From positions 1 through 24,041 of the IMG/VR virus record IMGVR_UViG_3300027754_000436: 24,041 bases of DNA. The stretch is one strand, 5' to 3'. The first letter of the stretch is position 1. Every line of letters starts with the position of its first letter. The notes beneath the pieces were generated by a model, which was not told the origin of the DNA, ran no database searches, and was given only the letters and a program-made list of their open reading frames with translations. Made by a program: the position numbers and the translations under genes. Shown in pieces: positions 11,697-23,934 of the stretch. The DNA is from a virus.

Positions 11697-12896
11697 ATGA
11701 AAAATGTATCAAACACGTATGGTTACTATTTGACCGAAGATAGTGAGACGGTAGAGTTGCAGGGTAATTTTAAGGAGAATTTTATTTATCTTCCTACAAA
11801 AGACCCGAAAGAACAACTTAACTATAAGGTGTTTGTATCTCCTAAAAAGAATGTAAACTTTGCTATACAAATAGTTGGTGGGGATAATCCACAGACAATT
11901 TATATACCTCAACACATCTATAAAGATTTAGATTTTGCTTATTATGAGAATAACCCATATTATGTTATAAAAGATATTACGATTATTAAATTAGATTTTA
12001 CAGATACTGGTAATAAGTTAATTACATACTTAAAAACAAAGTTTGAAAAGGCAACAGATGGTTTATCCAAACTATCACAAGCAGGTGTTGATTCAGTTGA
12101 CAACTATGCCGGCTTTAGTACAAATGGTCAACCAGTAGATGAAGATATATTAAAACAAATTCTTTTTTTATTTGATGAGCAAAACGATATTATATTTGTT
12201 GATAAAAATGTAAAATTAGTGGATGAAACAATAGTTAAAGAAAGAAATTATAAATCAAATCGTATTAAAGGTAAGTTTGCATACACTAGTAATTACTTTG
12301 ATTCGACTGGTAAATTTAAGGAAGGTATATTAAATAGTAAATCAAACATTAAATTAGAAACAACCACTGGCTTAAATATTTCACAATTAAACGATTTTGT
12401 AAAAGATTTTGCAGGCAGTAGTCTTACAGAAATTAACTCAATATATAAAACCAATATTGTAAAAGATACAATTATATCAAACGCACCAAAGGTATTAGGA
12501 ATGATTATGAGTGGCATTCCACTTGTAGCACCATTAGTAAAAGGTACATTAGATAAGTTGGCACAATTAAAAAAACAAAATGCTGCTAAACAATTAGAAC
12601 AAGCAAACGCAATTGGTGGTATTAAAGGAGAAGCAACGGATAAGCTTGATGATGTAAAGGGTTTATTTTCAACGCAAAAATCATTGGTTTCTAAATACCA
12701 AAGTTCTATAATGTTACCGCCTACTAATATAAAAAAAATAAATACATCATTTGGAAGTGGATTACCCACAATACCAAATGCTTCATTGCCAACATTACCA
12801 AAATTACCGGCAGCTCCAAATGTTCCAACTATAAATTCAATTAAAACAACACCATCAAGTATAAAACAAATAAACGCAGATTTTTTAAAGTTTTAA
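11697..12896 (+). CDS. Large hypothetical protein, possible virion component, 399 aa
   Basis: No family is recognised. The first 100 residues are beta-rich (a VFVSPKKNVNFAIQIVGG segment and IYIPQHIYKDLDFAYYE). The middle is mixed, and residues about 265-290 form a hydrophobic stretch (VLGMIMSGIPLVAPLV), followed by a Lys/Ala/Gln-rich coiled-coil-like region. The C-terminal 60 residues are a Pro/Leu/Thr-rich repeat (IPNASLPTLPKLPAAPNVP). This pattern, and the position after the possible late element with a small basic protein, suggest a structural or ejected protein. That is inference only. Confidence 0.75.
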   Translation: MKNVSNTYGYYLTEDSETVELQGNFKENFIYLPTKDPKEQLNYKVFVSPKKNVNFAIQIVGGDNPQTIYIPQHIYKDLDFAYYENNPYYVIKDITIIKLDFTDTGNKLITYLKTKFEKATDGLSKLSQAGVDSVDNYAGFSTNGQPVDEDILKQILFLFDEQNDIIFVDKNVKLVDETIVKERNYKSNRIKGKFAYTSNYFDSTGKFKEGILNSKSNIKLETTTGLNISQLNDFVKDFAGSSLTEINSIYKTNIVKDTIISNAPKVLGMIMSGIPLVAPLVKGTLDKLAQLKKQNAAKQLEQANAIGGIKGEATDKLDDVKGLFSTQKSLVSKYQSSIMLPPTNIKKINTSFGSGLPTIPNASLPTLPKLPAAPNVPTINSIKTTPSSIKQINADFLKF

Positions 12897-18032: not shown

Positions 18033-19024
18033 TGAAAGTATTAATTACAGGTGTAGCTGGATTATTAGGTAGTAGATTAGCAGATTACATCATAGAAAAT
18101 GTACCAGAAGCAGAAGTAGTAGGTATTGATGATTTGAGTGGTGGGTATAAAGAGAATATTAATCCAAAAATAACATTTTGGAATCAAGATATTGTAAATC
18201 ACCCAATTGAAAATTGTTTTGAGGTATATAAGTTTGATTATGTGTTCCATTTAGCAGCTTATGCGGCTGAAGGATTATCACCATTTATCAGAAAATATAA
18301 CTATGAAAACAATTTAGTTGCAACTGCTAAAATTGTAAATAATTGTATTAAGTACAATGTTAAAAGATTGGTATTTACATCTACTCTTGCAGTATATGGA
18401 CATGGTGAAGGTGGAATATTTGATGAGAATCAACAACAAGCACCGATTGACCCGTATGGTGTAGCAAAGTATGGATGTGAAATGGATATTCAAATTGCAG
18501 GAGAACAACATGGTTTAGATTGGTGTATAATCCGCCCACATAATGTTTATGGTAGAAATCAAAACATTTGGGATAAGTATAGAAATGTTTTGGGTATTTG
18601 GATGTACCAACACTTAAACGGATTGCCAATGACTATATTTGGTGATGGAGAACAAACTAGAGCATTTAGTTGTATTGATGATATTATTGAACCACTATGG
18701 AAATCGGCTATCTTACCAGAAGCATCGAATCAAATTATCAATTTAGGTGGTGTAGAGGAATGGACAATTAACGATGCTTGTAAAGTATTACAAAAAGTAA
18801 TCGGTGATGGTACAATCGAATACAAAGAAGGTAGACACGAAGTAAAACATGCTATTCCAACTTGGCAAAAATCAATTGATATATTAGGATTTGAACACAA
18901 AACCGAATTAGAAGATGGATTGAAAGATATGTGGGAGTGGGCTCAAAAACAACCTAAAAGAGAACAATTCGTTTGGGATTCGTATGAGATAGATAATGGT
19001 ATTTACTCATTTTGGAAAAACTAA
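18032..19024 (+). CDS. NAD-dependent nucleotide-sugar epimerase/dehydratase
   Basis: 330 aa, an extended short-chain dehydrogenase. The NAD-binding loop GVAGLLG is at residues 7-13, the acidic residue after strand 2 is in GIDDLSGG, and the catalytic set is STLAVYG (117-123) with Y142 and K146 in YGVAK. A C-terminal sugar-binding part includes RPHNVYGRNQ and a FGDGEQTRAF segment, as in UDP-glucose 4-epimerases. It likely interconverts or dehydrates a nucleotide sugar for the neighbouring glycosyltransferases. The exact substrate cannot be read. Confidence 0.88.
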   Translation: MKVLITGVAGLLGSRLADYIIENVPEAEVVGIDDLSGGYKENINPKITFWNQDIVNHPIENCFEVYKFDYVFHLAAYAAEGLSPFIRKYNYENNLVATAKIVNNCIKYNVKRLVFTSTLAVYGHGEGGIFDENQQQAPIDPYGVAKYGCEMDIQIAGEQHGLDWCIIRPHNVYGRNQNIWDKYRNVLGIWMYQHLNGLPMTIFGDGEQTRAFSCIDDIIEPLWKSAILPEASNQIINLGGVEEWTINDACKVLQKVIGDGTIEYKEGRHEVKHAIPTWQKSIDILGFEHKTELEDGLKDMWEWAQKQPKREQFVWDSYEIDNGIYSFWKN

Positions 19025-19028
19025 AAAT

Positions 19029-19661
19029 ATGTATTCAGTTGTAGCATTAACAATGTGGAAGTGTGAGAGATTTAAAGAAACTCTTGCTGAATTAGATAAA
19101 CACCCATTAGTAGGTGAGATTATTCTAATAGATAATTCAGAAATGGATGTGGATTTAATAAAATTGAAGAAACTAAATCACATTAAAGAAGAAAAGAACA
19201 CTTATATTAATCCAGCGTGGAATAAAGGTGTATCATTGGCTAAATATAATAAATTATTAGTATTAAACGATGATTTATGGTTTGATTGGGATATTTTATC
19301 TACATTAGAACCCCATATAACCGAAGATATAGCAATGATAGGTATGGCAGAGGAGAATTTTGATAACCCATCCGATGAGTTTGGTTTAGAACCCATAACC
19401 CATAGAAATGGTGGATTTGCTTGTGCTTTCTTTATACATAAGAATAGTTGGTTAAATATCCCATTTGAAATGAAATTATGGGGAGGAGATGACTGGTTAT
19501 TTGTTAAAAATAGAAATGGTGGTAAGCAAAACTACAAAATTACAGGTTTTAAACTATTTGGTGAAGTTTCTGGTACATTGGAGAACGTAGATTTAACACC
19601 AACGCTAAATCCAATCAAACAAAACGATTTAAAATTAAAAGATTATTACAATCTATTTTAA
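19029..19661 (+). CDS. Glycosyltransferase, GT-A/GT2-like, 210 aa
   Basis: The ATG at 19029, after the epimerase stop, is preferred to an upstream in-frame ATG at 18996 that overlaps that gene. The GT-A layout is visible: VVALTMWKCERF, then EIILIDNSE, then NPAWNKGVSLA, then LVLNDDLWF as the DxD-like metal site, and GGFACAFFIHK later. It would transfer a sugar from a nucleotide donor at the cytosolic face. It is short (210 aa). Its last 35 codons are duplicated at 20576-20682. Confidence 0.8.
   Translation: MYSVVALTMWKCERFKETLAELDKHPLVGEIILIDNSEMDVDLIKLKKLNHIKEEKNTYINPAWNKGVSLAKYNKLLVLNDDLWFDWDILSTLEPHITEDIAMIGMAEENFDNPSDEFGLEPITHRNGGFACAFFIHKNSWLNIPFEMKLWGGDDWLFVKNRNGGKQNYKITGFKLFGEVSGTLENVDLTPTLNPIKQNDLKLKDYYNLF
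19555..19661 (+). repeat. Direct repeat copy A: 3' end of the glycosyltransferase gene
   Basis: This 107-bp segment is repeated at 20576-20682 (offset 1021) with six differences by eye. It lies wholly in the gene's 3' end including the stop codon. Confidence 0.95.
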
Positions 19662-19662
19662 T

Positions 19663-20556
19663 ATGAAAAAAATTGTATTTTTATATAGACAAGTAAGGGA
19701 AATGGGAGAATATTTTGTTCTAACCCAACCCAAAATAATGTTAGAAATGTATGGTTTAAATGTTGAAACACAACTATTACCTAATATAGATTTGAATACC
19801 ATTAAAGATTCAATTGTGGTTTTTTGTAAAGAAATACACAAAGATGAATCAGATATACTACATAATAATAATAATTTAATTTATTTAGATATAGTAGACC
19901 TACTTGCACATTTGGGGCATGGTAATCAAAGTGAAAGACTTGATTATTATTTAAAAGAATGTAGTGTAGATAAAATAATATTTAGACAAAAATATATTGC
20001 GGATTTATATGGTAATTTTGGATATTATATCCCACACCACTATGATTTTAGATTAAATTTTATAAATGTACCTGCTAACGATTTTTCACAAAAGAAAATT
20101 TCATTCCCTTATACTGACCCCGGCGGTATAGCATTACACTCAACTTTTACTGATTTATTTGATGTAGTACCTATTAGTGCAGACATGGTTTTTAATTTTA
20201 GCCAAATAAAAAATGTAAATTTAGAATGTGTAAAAAATAATTTTTATTTTGGATTAAGAAAAAACACAAGTACAGATTATTGGTATAAACCTTGCACAAA
20301 AACTGCATCAGCTGCTGCATTAAATAGAAACATCATAACCAATACTGATAAATCATTAGATGATTTATTACCTCGCGATTATCCTTATTTTTTATTAGAT
20401 GATAGTGATGAGGCATTTATTGAATTTTATCACTCTAAAATAGAAATACCAAATAAAGATGAATATAAATATGGGTTAGAATGTATGCGAAATGTAAAAG
20501 AAAAAACAAATATATTTAATCTATTTGAACTATATAAAAATTTATTTGAAGTATAA
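19663..20556 (+). CDS. Putative GT-B-type glycosyltransferase, 297 aa
   Basis: The N-terminal half reads like a Rossmann domain (KKIVFLYRQ, IVVFCKEIHKD, LIYLDIVDLLAH, then IIFRQKYIADLYG). The C-terminal part has FGLRKNTSTDYWYKPCTKTASAAAL, the pattern of a donor-binding loop in GT-B enzymes, then NRNIITNTDKSLDDLLP. The gene appears even richer in A and T than its neighbours and is flanked by the two 107-bp direct repeats, which suggests that it was added to an older gene order. The enzyme class is inferred from this pattern. Confidence 0.65.
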   Translation: MKKIVFLYRQVREMGEYFVLTQPKIMLEMYGLNVETQLLPNIDLNTIKDSIVVFCKEIHKDESDILHNNNNLIYLDIVDLLAHLGHGNQSERLDYYLKECSVDKIIFRQKYIADLYGNFGYYIPHHYDFRLNFINVPANDFSQKKISFPYTDPGGIALHSTFTDLFDVVPISADMVFNFSQIKNVNLECVKNNFYFGLRKNTSTDYWYKPCTKTASAAALNRNIITNTDKSLDDLLPRDYPYFLLDDSDEAFIEFYHSKIEIPNKDEYKYGLECMRNVKEKTNIFNLFELYKNLFEV

Positions 20557-20575
20557 CCCTACAAAACCCATTAAT

Positions 20576-20682
20576 TATTTGGTGAAGTTTCTGGTACATT
20601 GGAGAATGCAGATTTAACACCAACACTAAATCCAATCAAACAAAACGATTTAAAATTAAAAGATTACTACAATTTATTTTAG
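20576..20682 (+). pseudogene. Direct repeat copy B: orphan 3' end of a glycosyltransferase gene
   Basis: This is a headless copy of 19555-19661. It encodes FGEVSGTLENADLTPTLNP and onward to the same DYYNLF end, with a TAG stop. Of the six differences, four are silent, one swaps the stop (TAA to TAG) and one changes Val to Ala. It has no start codon and lies two bases before the next gene, where the glycosyltransferase gene itself probably once ended. Confidence 0.9.
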
Positions 20683-20684
20683 TT

Positions 20685-21794
20685 ATGAAAACATTAAACG
20701 AATTAATTGATGAGTTTGGTAGTGATAAGAATTTAAGTGGATACACTCCTACTTATATTGAATTGTTTGAATCTATTAGAGATAAAAATTTAAACCTATT
20801 AGAAATAGGAATTGGGACAATAATATCTGGTGCTCAAAGTTCTATGTCAAATACTAAAATCCAAAATTACAAACCAGGTGCTTCTTTGCGTGTTTGGAAA
20901 ACATATTTCCCTAATGCACTTATATATGGCGGAGATATTCAAGAGGATACACAATTTACAGAGGATAGAATCCAAACATTTTTATTTGATTCTACAAATA
21001 AAGAACAATGTGATACTACCTTAAAAGATATGGAATTTGATATTATAATTGATGATGGTTGGCACAAATGGGAAGCACAAAAAGATACAATAACCAATTT
21101 GTTTAGTAGAGTTAAGGTAGGTGGGTATTATATTATAGAAGATATTGAACAAGGTGGTGGTAGTGCTTTATTCAATGATGAGTTTGAAAATCTTAAAAAA
21201 ATAGTGGAAAACAATGATATAAAATCAAATTTTGCTAAAAATCTTATCGTAATCCATAAAACCCATATGATAAAATTAATTATATTAGATGTTGATGGTG
21301 TAATGACTGATGGTAAAAAATACTATGGTATAAATGGTATGCCATTTGCTAAAACATTTGCAGATAAAGATTGGACATCTATAAAACGATTCAAAGCATT
21401 GGGTATTCCAGTTATATTCCTAACAGGAGATGCTAACATAAACGAAGAAATTGGTAAAAACCGAAATATTCCAACTTATTTAAGTAGAGGTAAAGAAAAG
21501 GCAGATTTTATACCAGAATTTGAAAAGATATACAATTGTACTGCCGATGATATGCTTTATGTAGGTGATGATTTGTTTGATTTGGGTATAATGCGTAAAG
21601 TTGGATATGCCTTTTCTACAAAAGATGCTCCTTTGATGGTTAAAGATGAATGTATAACTTTACCAAAAAATGGTGGAGATAATGTAATTTTATCATTATT
21701 TGAGTTTTGCGAACAACATAAAATGGTTGAAATTGTAGAATTTGATGAAATAATGGGGAAAATAAACGAATTAGATAAAAAAGAAGTGTTTTAA
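20685..21794 (+). CDS. Fusion: SAM methyltransferase plus KdsC-like HAD phosphatase, 369 aa
   Basis: Residues 1 to about 190 are a class I methyltransferase of the kind seen in sugar and macrolide O-methylation: FGSDKN near the start, LLEIGIGT (motif I), ASLRVWKTYFPNA, IIIDDGWHKW (120-129) and GGYYIIEDI. Residues 195-369 are a HAD phosphatase: DVDGVMTDG (202-210) with D202 as nucleophile and D204 as acid/base, IPVIFLTGDA, and GDDLFDLGIM. The HAD motifs resemble KdsC, which removes phosphate from Kdo-8-phosphate, and related sugar phosphatases. The junction is tight (IVIHKTHM), and an internal ATG at 21267 could allow separate expression of the HAD part. Confidence 0.85.
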   Translation: MKTLNELIDEFGSDKNLSGYTPTYIELFESIRDKNLNLLEIGIGTIISGAQSSMSNTKIQNYKPGASLRVWKTYFPNALIYGGDIQEDTQFTEDRIQTFLFDSTNKEQCDTTLKDMEFDIIIDDGWHKWEAQKDTITNLFSRVKVGGYYIIEDIEQGGGSALFNDEFENLKKIVENNDIKSNFAKNLIVIHKTHMIKLIILDVDGVMTDGKKYYGINGMPFAKTFADKDWTSIKRFKALGIPVIFLTGDANINEEIGKNRNIPTYLSRGKEKADFIPEFEKIYNCTADDMLYVGDDLFDLGIMRKVGYAFSTKDAPLMVKDECITLPKNGGDNVILSLFEFCEQHKMVEIVEFDEIMGKINELDKKEVF

Positions 21795-21795
21795 T

Positions 21796-22458
21796 ATGGT
21801 AGATGTAGCATTATATGGTAATCTTACCAAAGATATAATCTTTAATGGGTTTGAGCAAACTACATCCATAGGTTCAATTGGAAATGTGTGGGATGCGTTA
21901 GTTAAACTAAACCAAAAATTAACAATACATATTGAACCAACAACAATTGGTACTGCACTAATCTATGTGGATACGGATAATAATACGCGCGTATCCAAAC
22001 CTAATTTATATCTAAAAGTAAATCAACCAAAAGTAGTAGAAGCAAAGTGGAGTCATATTCTATATCTAAATCATATTAAAGATTTAGAGTTTCTAAAATC
22101 TATACAAAATTCAATCATATCAGCGGATGTTGCCGGCAAGGGAAAATTTGATTTGGATATACTTACTTATATAGATTATCTATTCATTTCAGATGAAGAT
22201 ATTATTGATTTAGATATTCTATTGGATAAAATAAAAGGTTGTGTTATATTACATAGTAATTCAGGTAGTACAATTTACAAAAAGGATGGTACTACAATAA
22301 TAACAAACCACAAAACAATAGATGGAGTAAATGTATTAGGTGCGGGTGATTACTTTGCATCGGTATTTATAAATTCTATGTTACAACTAAATGATATAGA
22401 ATTATCAATTAAAGTAGCACATAACAAAACAATTAGTTTTTTGAAAGATAAAGTATGA
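21796..22458 (+). CDS. PfkB/ribokinase-family sugar kinase, short form
   Basis: 220 aa, against about 300 for typical family members. The family signature LGAGDYFAS is present with the catalytic base D185 in GAGD (182-185). An N-terminal SIGNVWDAL segment corresponds to the GG-x-x-N-x-A substrate loop, and VDTDNNTRV is typical of the lid region. The missing part lies between, so the lid or an internal strand is shortened. It would phosphorylate a sugar or sugar phosphate with ATP, like HldE or HddA. It is between the phosphatase and the nucleotidyltransferase genes and overlaps the next gene as ATGA. Confidence 0.78.
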   Translation: MVDVALYGNLTKDIIFNGFEQTTSIGSIGNVWDALVKLNQKLTIHIEPTTIGTALIYVDTDNNTRVSKPNLYLKVNQPKVVEAKWSHILYLNHIKDLEFLKSIQNSIISADVAGKGKFDLDILTYIDYLFISDEDIIDLDILLDKIKGCVILHSNSGSTIYKKDGTTIITNHKTIDGVNVLGAGDYFASVFINSMLQLNDIELSIKVAHNKTISFLKDKV

Positions 22459-23612
22459 AACCAATACTATTAGTACCCATTGCAGGAAAAGGACAAAGAT
22501 TTGTGGATGATGGTTTCCACATGCCAAAACCACTTATTATGGTGGATGATAAACACATTATTGATTGGTCATTTTTATCAATCAATAAAGATGAATACGA
22601 TATTGTATTCGTTGTTCGTAAAGAGCACATTTATAATTTTGGTATGGATACTATTTTAAGAAACAAATTTGGTGAGGATATTAAAATAGTTGAAACGGAT
22701 AAAATAACAAGTGGTACGGTTGCATCTTGTTTATTAGCAAAAGATTTTATCAATAACGAACAAGAATTGGTTATCTACACATTAGATGTTCATTTTCAAA
22801 ACAAATTTAGTATAAATGATGTTGATAAAGAATCTGATGGATTTATTTTAACATTTAAGGCAAACAATCCAGCATACTCATACGCGGAGTTAGATGATAA
22901 TGGATTGGTATTAAGAACGGCTGAAAAGGAAGTGATAAGTGAAAACGCAGCAGTTGGCATTTACTATTTCAAAGAGGGTAGTACATTTGTAAAGTATGCA
23001 GAGGAAATGGTTGATAAAAACTTACGAACTAATAATGAGTTCTATGTCTGTCCTTTGTATAACCTAATGATTAAAGATGGGTTAAAGGTTAGAACTAAAC
23101 AAGTTGAAAAGATGTATCTAATGGGTACACCAACTGAACTAAACTTTTTCAAAAATCACGTCAACAAAAAATTTGGTGAAAAACCAATAGCACTTTGTTC
23201 AGACCATTCTGGTTTTGAATTGAAAGAAATAACAAAACAAATATTGGATGAAAAGGGATTAAAGTATATTGATTTTGGAACTTATGTAAAGAAAGATTGT
23301 GATTACAATGATTATGTAAAATCAGTTGCTCAATTTATTCAAGACAAATATTGTGATTTTGGATTTGTATTTTGTAGAAGTGGGCAGGGTGTGAATATGG
23401 CAGCTAATAAACAAAAAGGTATTCGTTCATCTTTAATTTCAGATGAGTGGACAGCAGAGATGGCAGTTAGACACGGGTGTTCCAATGTATTCGCATTTTC
23501 AGAAAAGAATATAGATAAAGATTTAATGGAAAAGTGCATTGATAAAATACAACACAATACATTTGATGGTGGTAGACATATAAATAGAGTTCAGAGATTA
23601 AATGAAAATTGA
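22455..23612 (+). CDS. Fusion: sugar nucleotidyltransferase plus RpiB/LacA-like isomerase, 385 aa
   Basis: Residues 1 to about 235 are a nucleotidyltransferase: PIAGKGQRF (8-16) followed by PKPLI is the NTP-binding motif, and YTLDVHF carries a metal-binding Asp. Residues about 242-385 match RpiB: ALCSDHSGFELK, YNDYVKSVAQFI, FVFCRSGQGVNMAANK with the catalytic Cys, SDEWTAEMAVRHG with a conserved His, and FDGGRHINRVQRL. The usual CGTG loop reads CRSG here, so substrate preference may differ. RpiB enzymes interconvert aldose and ketose phosphates. Both activities belong to one nucleotide-sugar pathway, in line with the adjacent kinase and phosphatase. Confidence 0.88.
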   Translation: MKPILLVPIAGKGQRFVDDGFHMPKPLIMVDDKHIIDWSFLSINKDEYDIVFVVRKEHIYNFGMDTILRNKFGEDIKIVETDKITSGTVASCLLAKDFINNEQELVIYTLDVHFQNKFSINDVDKESDGFILTFKANNPAYSYAELDDNGLVLRTAEKEVISENAAVGIYYFKEGSTFVKYAEEMVDKNLRTNNEFYVCPLYNLMIKDGLKVRTKQVEKMYLMGTPTELNFFKNHVNKKFGEKPIALCSDHSGFELKEITKQILDEKGLKYIDFGTYVKKDCDYNDYVKSVAQFIQDKYCDFGFVFCRSGQGVNMAANKQKGIRSSLISDEWTAEMAVRHGCSNVFAFSEKNIDKDLMEKCIDKIQHNTFDGGRHINRVQRLNEN

Positions 23613-23934
23613 TAATATAAAAAATTTTAAGCGAGGTTGGTTGGTTGGAAATTTCCAACCATCTTTGTTTGAAACGCAAACTAATGATGTTGGTGTTTTG
23701 TTTCTAAAATCAGGCGAAAGTGGAGATGGGCACTACCACTTAAACCATACGGAATACAATATAGTTTTATCAGGTAAAGCAGTTGTAGATGAAAACGAAT
23801 TGGTTAGTGGTGATATATTTGTATATGAAAGAGGTGATAAGAGTTATGTTACTTATTTAGAAGATACAATTTTATTGGTAATTAAAGACCCAGCAACTAA
23901 AAACGATAAACATTATGATACTAATATCTCATAG
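23602..23934 (+). CDS. Cupin-domain protein, 110 aa
   Basis: A single cupin barrel. The metal-binding motif GDGHYHLNHTEYNIVLSG provides H44, H46 and E51, and a second conserved motif is GDIFVYERGDKSYVTYLED. Small cupins act as sugar isomerases, epimerases or regulators. The context in the sugar cassette favours a sugar-modifying role. It overlaps the upstream fusion gene by 11 bases and the next start at 23915 by 20 bases. Confidence 0.82.
   Translation: MKIDNIKNFKRGWLVGNFQPSLFETQTNDVGVLFLKSGESGDGHYHLNHTEYNIVLSGKAVVDENELVSGDIFVYERGDKSYVTYLEDTILLVIKDPATKNDKHYDTNIS

Follow-up and report, generated by a model that had tools for sequence, protein, structure and literature searches.

The 24,041-nucleotide stretch of marine phage DNA analyzed here (positions 1 to 24,041 of IMG/VR record IMGVR_UViG_3300027754_000436; hereafter, the window) encodes, at positions 20685-23612, a compact set of four enzymatic domains that very likely makes an NDP-sugar of some kind. 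The chances appear about even that, taken as a whole, the set is an NDP-sugar cassette encoded by the phage and fed from the pentose-phosphate pool. The cassette is real and, in the sampled data (one genome-contig scan, plasmids and 395 Bacteroidota genomes), so far confined to phages; its combination of enzymes corresponds to no described pathway, and no published description of the cassette was found in the open-access literature.

The four domains were delineated with Pfam and NCBIfam profiles in three closely packed ORFs on the plus strand (20685-21794, 21796-22458 and 22455-23612) and comprise a KdsC-like HAD phosphatase (21267-21794), a minimal PfkB/ribokinase-fold kinase of 220 aa (21796-22458), a GT-A-type sugar-1-phosphate nucleotidyltransferase (NT; 22455-23168) and an RpiB-type sugar-phosphate isomerase fused to the NT (23169-23612). 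The initial annotation had recognized the same four domain types in three ORFs, and both the profiles and the AlphaFold folds of the PfkB and NT:RpiB proteins bear this out. It had also described two of the steps as fused to other enzymes; here, one fusion joins NT to RpiB, and the partner of the HAD domain is a non-pathway methyltransferase domain (20685-21266, plus strand; phrog_21658 methyltransferase match at 2e-10 and a weak TylF match). A small cupin ORF (23602-23934, plus strand; phrog_24762, 9e-24) follows the isomerase.

The HAD domain (residues 195-369 of ORF 1, following the methyltransferase in residues 1-194) resembles the KdsC/KDN-9-P phosphatase subfamily: it matches TIGR01670 (KdsC) at 7e-21, with 74.7 bits against a subfamily cut-off of 106.95, KdsC relatives of solved structure are among its matches (e.g., 1j8d, 1e-13), and the histidinol-phosphatase-type model reaches an E-value of 0.04 only. 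With KdsC/YrbI-type phosphatases it shares the subfamily match, the compact single domain and the HAD motifs (DxDG, GD, K and GDD, kept in 17 aligned phage copies), but it differs from them in a TGD or SGD loop in place of TGR, in scoring under the subfamily cut-off and in having no KdsA partner in the searched phages.

The kinase belongs to the PfkB/ribokinase family, on the basis of both its fold and its GAGD catalytic motif. Although PF00294 matches only the C-terminal part (1.5e-6), the AlphaFold model (pLDDT 90.5) has a ribokinase-type fold, with the best Z-score, 21.4, to the putative ribokinase 3h49, and the Asp of the G(A/S)GD motif is invariant in all aligned copies. The kinase ORF matches no HldE or HddA model in NCBIfam; HldE-like structures are also absent among its best 50 listed structural matches, which is non-diagnostic.

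The AlphaFold model of the NT:RpiB protein (pLDDT 88) consists of two domains. The NT (residues 1-240 of ORF 3; PF00483, 4e-9) is a GT-A NDP-sugar pyrophosphorylase by its GxxxR...PK loop, metal-binding Asp and sugar-phosphate Lys; the motifs AGxxxRF, PK, D111 and EK(x)2IS are kept in 24 copies, and the structural neighbors are 4evw (Z 25.7) and GalU, GlmU and RmlA (Z 20-24). The RpiB domain (residues 241-385; PF02502, 2e-37) aligns with Thermotoga RpiB (1o1x) at Z 20.9 and 37% structural-alignment identity, and the catalytic Asp-His, Cys and His together with the phosphate-binding GGRHxxR motif (D250, H251, C307, H340, R374 and R378) are invariant in 24 copies. The domain exceeds the cut-off of TIGR00689 (125 bits versus 88), and RpiB profiles outscore those for LacAB and EryI, but it falls under that of the rpiB equivalog model (114.7 bits versus 138.65). 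In fold, Cys, His, Asp-His and GGRHxxR it is thus like the RpiB/LacA/LacB isomerases, from which it is set apart by the fusion to NT, the equivalog score and the loop that follows the catalytic Cys. This loop reads CR[ST]GQG in all 66 phage RpiB copies in place of the canonical CG[ST]GxG of the RpiB/LacAB family; in the Bacteroidota control (30 loci, 8 of which were not parsed), all 22 readable RpiBs have CG[ST]G, with Gly where the phage enzymes have Arg. The residue after the Cys is part of the RpiB anion-hole loop, so the invariant Arg perhaps alters specificity, and the phage RpiB may act on a substrate other than ribose-5-P.

In the NCBIfam searches, no cassette domain reaches a substrate-specific (equivalog) cut-off. 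All four domains retain intact catalytic motifs in the alignments, including those of the kinase and the NT, on the presence of which the initial annotation had staked its proposal. The HAD, PfkB, NT, RpiB and cupin are all under purifying selection, with dN/dS values of 0.12, 0.09, 0.04, 0.02 and 0.09, respectively, between the window and a 97% relative; together with the motif conservation, these values rule out a degraded remnant.

A scan of IMG/VR with PfkB yielded 64 loci, and the pooled set consists of 67 loci that include some duplicate contigs and represent 52 distinct PfkB sequences; the annotated carbohydrate kinase of S-SM2, a marginal match (whole-sequence E-value of 9.5e-4), was left out of the cassette counts. 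The order HAD-PfkB-NT is found in all 66 testable loci, the 67th being cut by the contig end, which rules out a chance neighborhood; in 65 of these 66, HAD lies directly upstream of PfkB and in one (L087) it is separated by an intervening ORF. In 57 of the 62 complete loci, a single protein contains both NT and RpiB, and neighboring genes of the cassette mostly overlap by 1-4 bases. After NT:RpiB, a cupin is encoded in 51 of 55 readable loci of this type, but in none of the five loci of the transketolase type (see below); in the RpiB-type cassette it is probably an accessory isomerase or epimerase acting on the sugar. The initial annotation had allowed that in homologous clusters the domains might belong to unrelated pathways; instead, HAD, kinase and NT occur together in every cluster. 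Epimerases, glycosyltransferases and methyltransferases flank the cassettes, and two isolates, the Synechococcus phages SynMITS9220M01 and Bellamy, carry the cassette; the former is also annotated with glucose-6-phosphate and 6-phosphogluconate dehydrogenases.

Several further features of these phage loci were recorded. Near cassettes (e.g., L091:6999-7466), a small ORF product begins with IAHRGN and, by eye, resembles a truncated glycerophosphodiester phosphodiesterase; similar ORFs are present in 56 of 69 PfkB-hit loci. Locus L120 (7840-9662) is a mosaic in which PfkB groups with those of L118-type phages and NT with that of L102, which suggests recombination within the cassette. Related phage NTs are found fused in ~455-aa HAD_2:NT proteins or arranged in tandem in NT-NT proteins of ~523 aa (L003, L009 and many others; L002:14226-15800; L005:7995-9563). 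The NTs of the HAD_2:NT proteins (S-PRM1, S-CAM9, B23) are ~40-45% identical to the cassette NT and are likewise phage-borne and located in glycan clusters, but these proteins start with a HAD domain of another family, their loci yielded no homologue of PfkB or RpiB, and their NTs form a separate clade (support 100/100).

The fusion of methyltransferase and HAD was rejected as a general feature of the cassette, having been seen in the window only; in the 97% relative, HAD is unfused and directly preceded by a glycosyltransferase. Colinearity with this relative ends at 18040 and, but for a brief glycosyltransferase match, is not restored until 21266, one base ahead of the HAD start codon (21267), at which the methyltransferase reads in frame into HAD. 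Given this gap and the unfused HAD of the relative, the methyltransferase domain and ORF 19663-20556 look like insertions. The fusion is a local event outside the pathway model, and the methyltransferase domain is probably a glycan-modifying enzyme that contributes no pathway step. The relative lacks ORF 19663-20556, which has on either side a 123-nt direct repeat (19552-19674 and 20573-20695, 90% identical) that copies the terminal part of glycosyltransferase ORF 18996-19661, an arrangement that reads as the signature of a recent insertion. Elsewhere in the window, a 399-aa ORF (11697-12896) has no PHROG match and no match in the phage collection.

The substrate of the cassette is suggested by the five loci in which NT lacks RpiB (L087, L091, L092, L094 and L128). 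In exactly these five, a split transketolase pair is located directly downstream of NT, and in the NT tree the transketolase-type NTs form one clade (100/99) nested within the fused NTs (96/92). Given this topology, a single loss of RpiB probably accompanied the arrival of transketolase, so the Fisher value for this pattern should not be taken as independent support; the replacement is also not strict because L094 possesses, in addition to its transketolase-type cassette, a separate second NT fused to RpiB. That transketolase stands in for RpiB in one clade suggests that the sugar phosphate comes from the pentose-phosphate pool, the simplest candidate being an aldopentose such as ribose-5-phosphate. 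In established pentose-phosphate chemistry, both RpiB and transketolase can yield ribose-5-P, which favors an aldopentose phosphate, with the caveat that transketolase could equally supply sedoheptulose-7-P or erythrose-4-P.

In the pathway that we propose, RpiB would convert a ketose phosphate to an aldose phosphate, most simply ribulose-5-P to ribose-5-P; PfkB would phosphorylate the anomeric carbon and the KdsC-like HAD would remove the other, non-anomeric phosphate, either via a 1,5-bisphosphate or via the free sugar; and NT would convert the resulting sugar-1-P to an NDP-sugar that the cupin possibly adjusts and that the neighboring glycosyltransferases would use. We infer the order of the steps, the anomeric site of phosphorylation, the identity of the pentose and the use of the product on host-surface or virion glycans. 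The initial annotation's proposal that the phage makes its own activated sugar very probably stands as far as a conserved unit of four chemistries is concerned, and modification of the surface or virion glycan would be its presumed purpose. Among the sugars which that annotation had considered, a pentose fits best; a ribose-type substrate is our tentative assignment, somewhat short of an even chance. The most specific version, in which an enzyme set so far found only in phages yields an NDP-activated pentose such as NDP-ribose, appears rather doubtful. Ribofuranose donors known so far come from PRPP, not NDP-ribose (PMC11127046), so NDP-ribose would be unprecedented in those systems, which counts against a pentose. 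PRPP-dependent ribofuranose addition likewise incorporates ribose units in glycans of bacteria with the help of a HAD phosphatase, but it involves neither a nucleotidyltransferase nor an anomeric kinase, the donor being PRPP or undecaprenyl-phosphate ribose (PMC11127046).

The initial annotation had modeled the cassette on NDP-heptose synthesis, with RpiB standing in for the SIS-fold GmhA. RpiB would then convert sedoheptulose-7-P to heptose-7-P, from which PfkB would make heptose-1,7-bisphosphate, HAD heptose-1-P and NT the NDP-heptose; in the transketolase-type loci, transketolase would supply sedoheptulose-7-P, which is among its products, and L094 holds both transketolase and NT:RpiB. GDP-/ADP-heptose biosynthesis (GmhA, HddA or HldE, GmhB, HddC or HldE) indeed relies on the same four chemistries, namely an isomerase, an anomeric kinase, a phosphatase and a nucleotidyltransferase acting on a sugar phosphate, and the likeness extends to protein folds given that the HldE kinase domain has the PfkB fold and HddC is a GT-A-type nucleotidyltransferase. 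However, the isomerase of the cassette is of the RpiB family (PF02502) and not a SIS-fold GmhA, its phosphatase matches the KdsC subfamily and not the GmhB type, its kinase is short and lacks an HldE match, its NT is fused to the isomerase, and it has a cupin partner. To our knowledge, the RpiB family includes no sedoheptulose-7-P isomerase, and the surroundings of the transketolase-type cassettes in L087, L091 and L128 showed no isomerase gene. Furthermore, SynMITS9220M01 carries HddA-like kinases, one of them located within ~10 kb of its cassette together with a GmhA-like isomerase and an RfaE-II-like nucleotidyltransferase (L001:22739-23488, with ~100 extra residues ahead of the RfaE-II-like domain), and a heptose epimerase is annotated as well, so that a second complete heptose route would be redundant in this phage; its announcement mentions only these separate heptose genes and not the cassette (PMC7378029). 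A GmhA-type SIS domain (SIS_2) was detected in one of 11 carrier records, several of which are fragments, namely in SynMITS9220M01, outside the cassette and under the family cut-off. Given the different HAD and isomerase families, the lack of an HldE match and the redundancy in SynMITS9220M01, RpiB is a poor fit for the role of GmhA, and we consider a heptose product quite unlikely. As for the Kdo-like sugar that the initial annotation had also considered, a KdsA-family synthase (PF00793) is absent from the 11 carrier phage records, some of them fragments, and was detected in 11 of 14 control genomes, so a complete Kdo route encoded by the phage is unlikely, although a host synthase could supply this step; given the fragmentary records, these absences carry little weight.

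An NDP-tetrose or NDP-hexose would result if RpiB acted like EryI (erythrulose-4-P/erythrose-4-P) or AlsB/LacAB (allose-6-P, galactose-6-P), with the later steps unchanged. The substituted active-site loop allows for such altered specificity, erythrose-4-P is also a transketolase product, and these activities are found within the same Pfam family; yet the EryI and LacAB models, although they do match the domain, score clearly below the RpiB models, and no tetrose or allose genes were recognized near the cassette, which makes this outcome unlikely. A different kind of explanation treats RpiB and transketolase as auxiliary metabolic genes: they would increase the ribose-5-P available for nucleotide synthesis by the phage, and their linkage to HAD-PfkB-NT would be incidental. 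This appears very improbable because RpiB is covalently fused to a sugar NT, always behind HAD and the kinase and inside glycan clusters, even though cyanophages steer host carbon via the pentose-phosphate pathway (PMC2984593) and some of the carrier cyanophages possess a transaldolase. The 195-kb record of the window's nearest relative yielded neither psbA nor transaldolase, which also argues against auxiliary metabolic genes; given the lack of psbA there, the host of the window is not established as a cyanobacterium.

The cellular sampling consisted of one genome-contig scan, plasmids and the 395 Bacteroidota genomes, so a cellular source may still exist among cyanobacterial, SAR11 or other genomes. 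The genome-contig scan returned only an apparent phage contig in a Crocinitomicaceae MAG and one weak archaeal NT match, and save for that contig no PfkB homologue was found in the 395 Bacteroidota genomes. On plasmids, there was no match to a transketolase-type PfkB, and only ordinary NT, RpiB or KdsC relatives were detected. The cassette-bearing contig of the MAG (L083; PACT01000001.1) matches a 15,998-base IMG/VR contig (L127) in length and gene layout and, by this similarity, apparently represents phage DNA that was binned with the MAG.

If the proposed NDP-sugar pathway is correct, marine phages of a widespread group have at their disposal a self-contained pathway for an activated sugar, one unlike any described so far, and would supply glycan building blocks of their own, beyond borrowing those of the host. 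The natural exchange of RpiB for transketolase serves as a built-in clue to the substrate, and the enzymes, compact and conserved as they are, lend themselves to purification and joint testing, so that the product could be found directly. Should the product be an NDP-pentose, it would represent a donor type absent from the ribofuranose systems described so far (PMC11127046). Cyanophage LPS genes have been suggested to alter the host surface during infection (PMC2984593), and such alteration is one plausible use of the cassette product.
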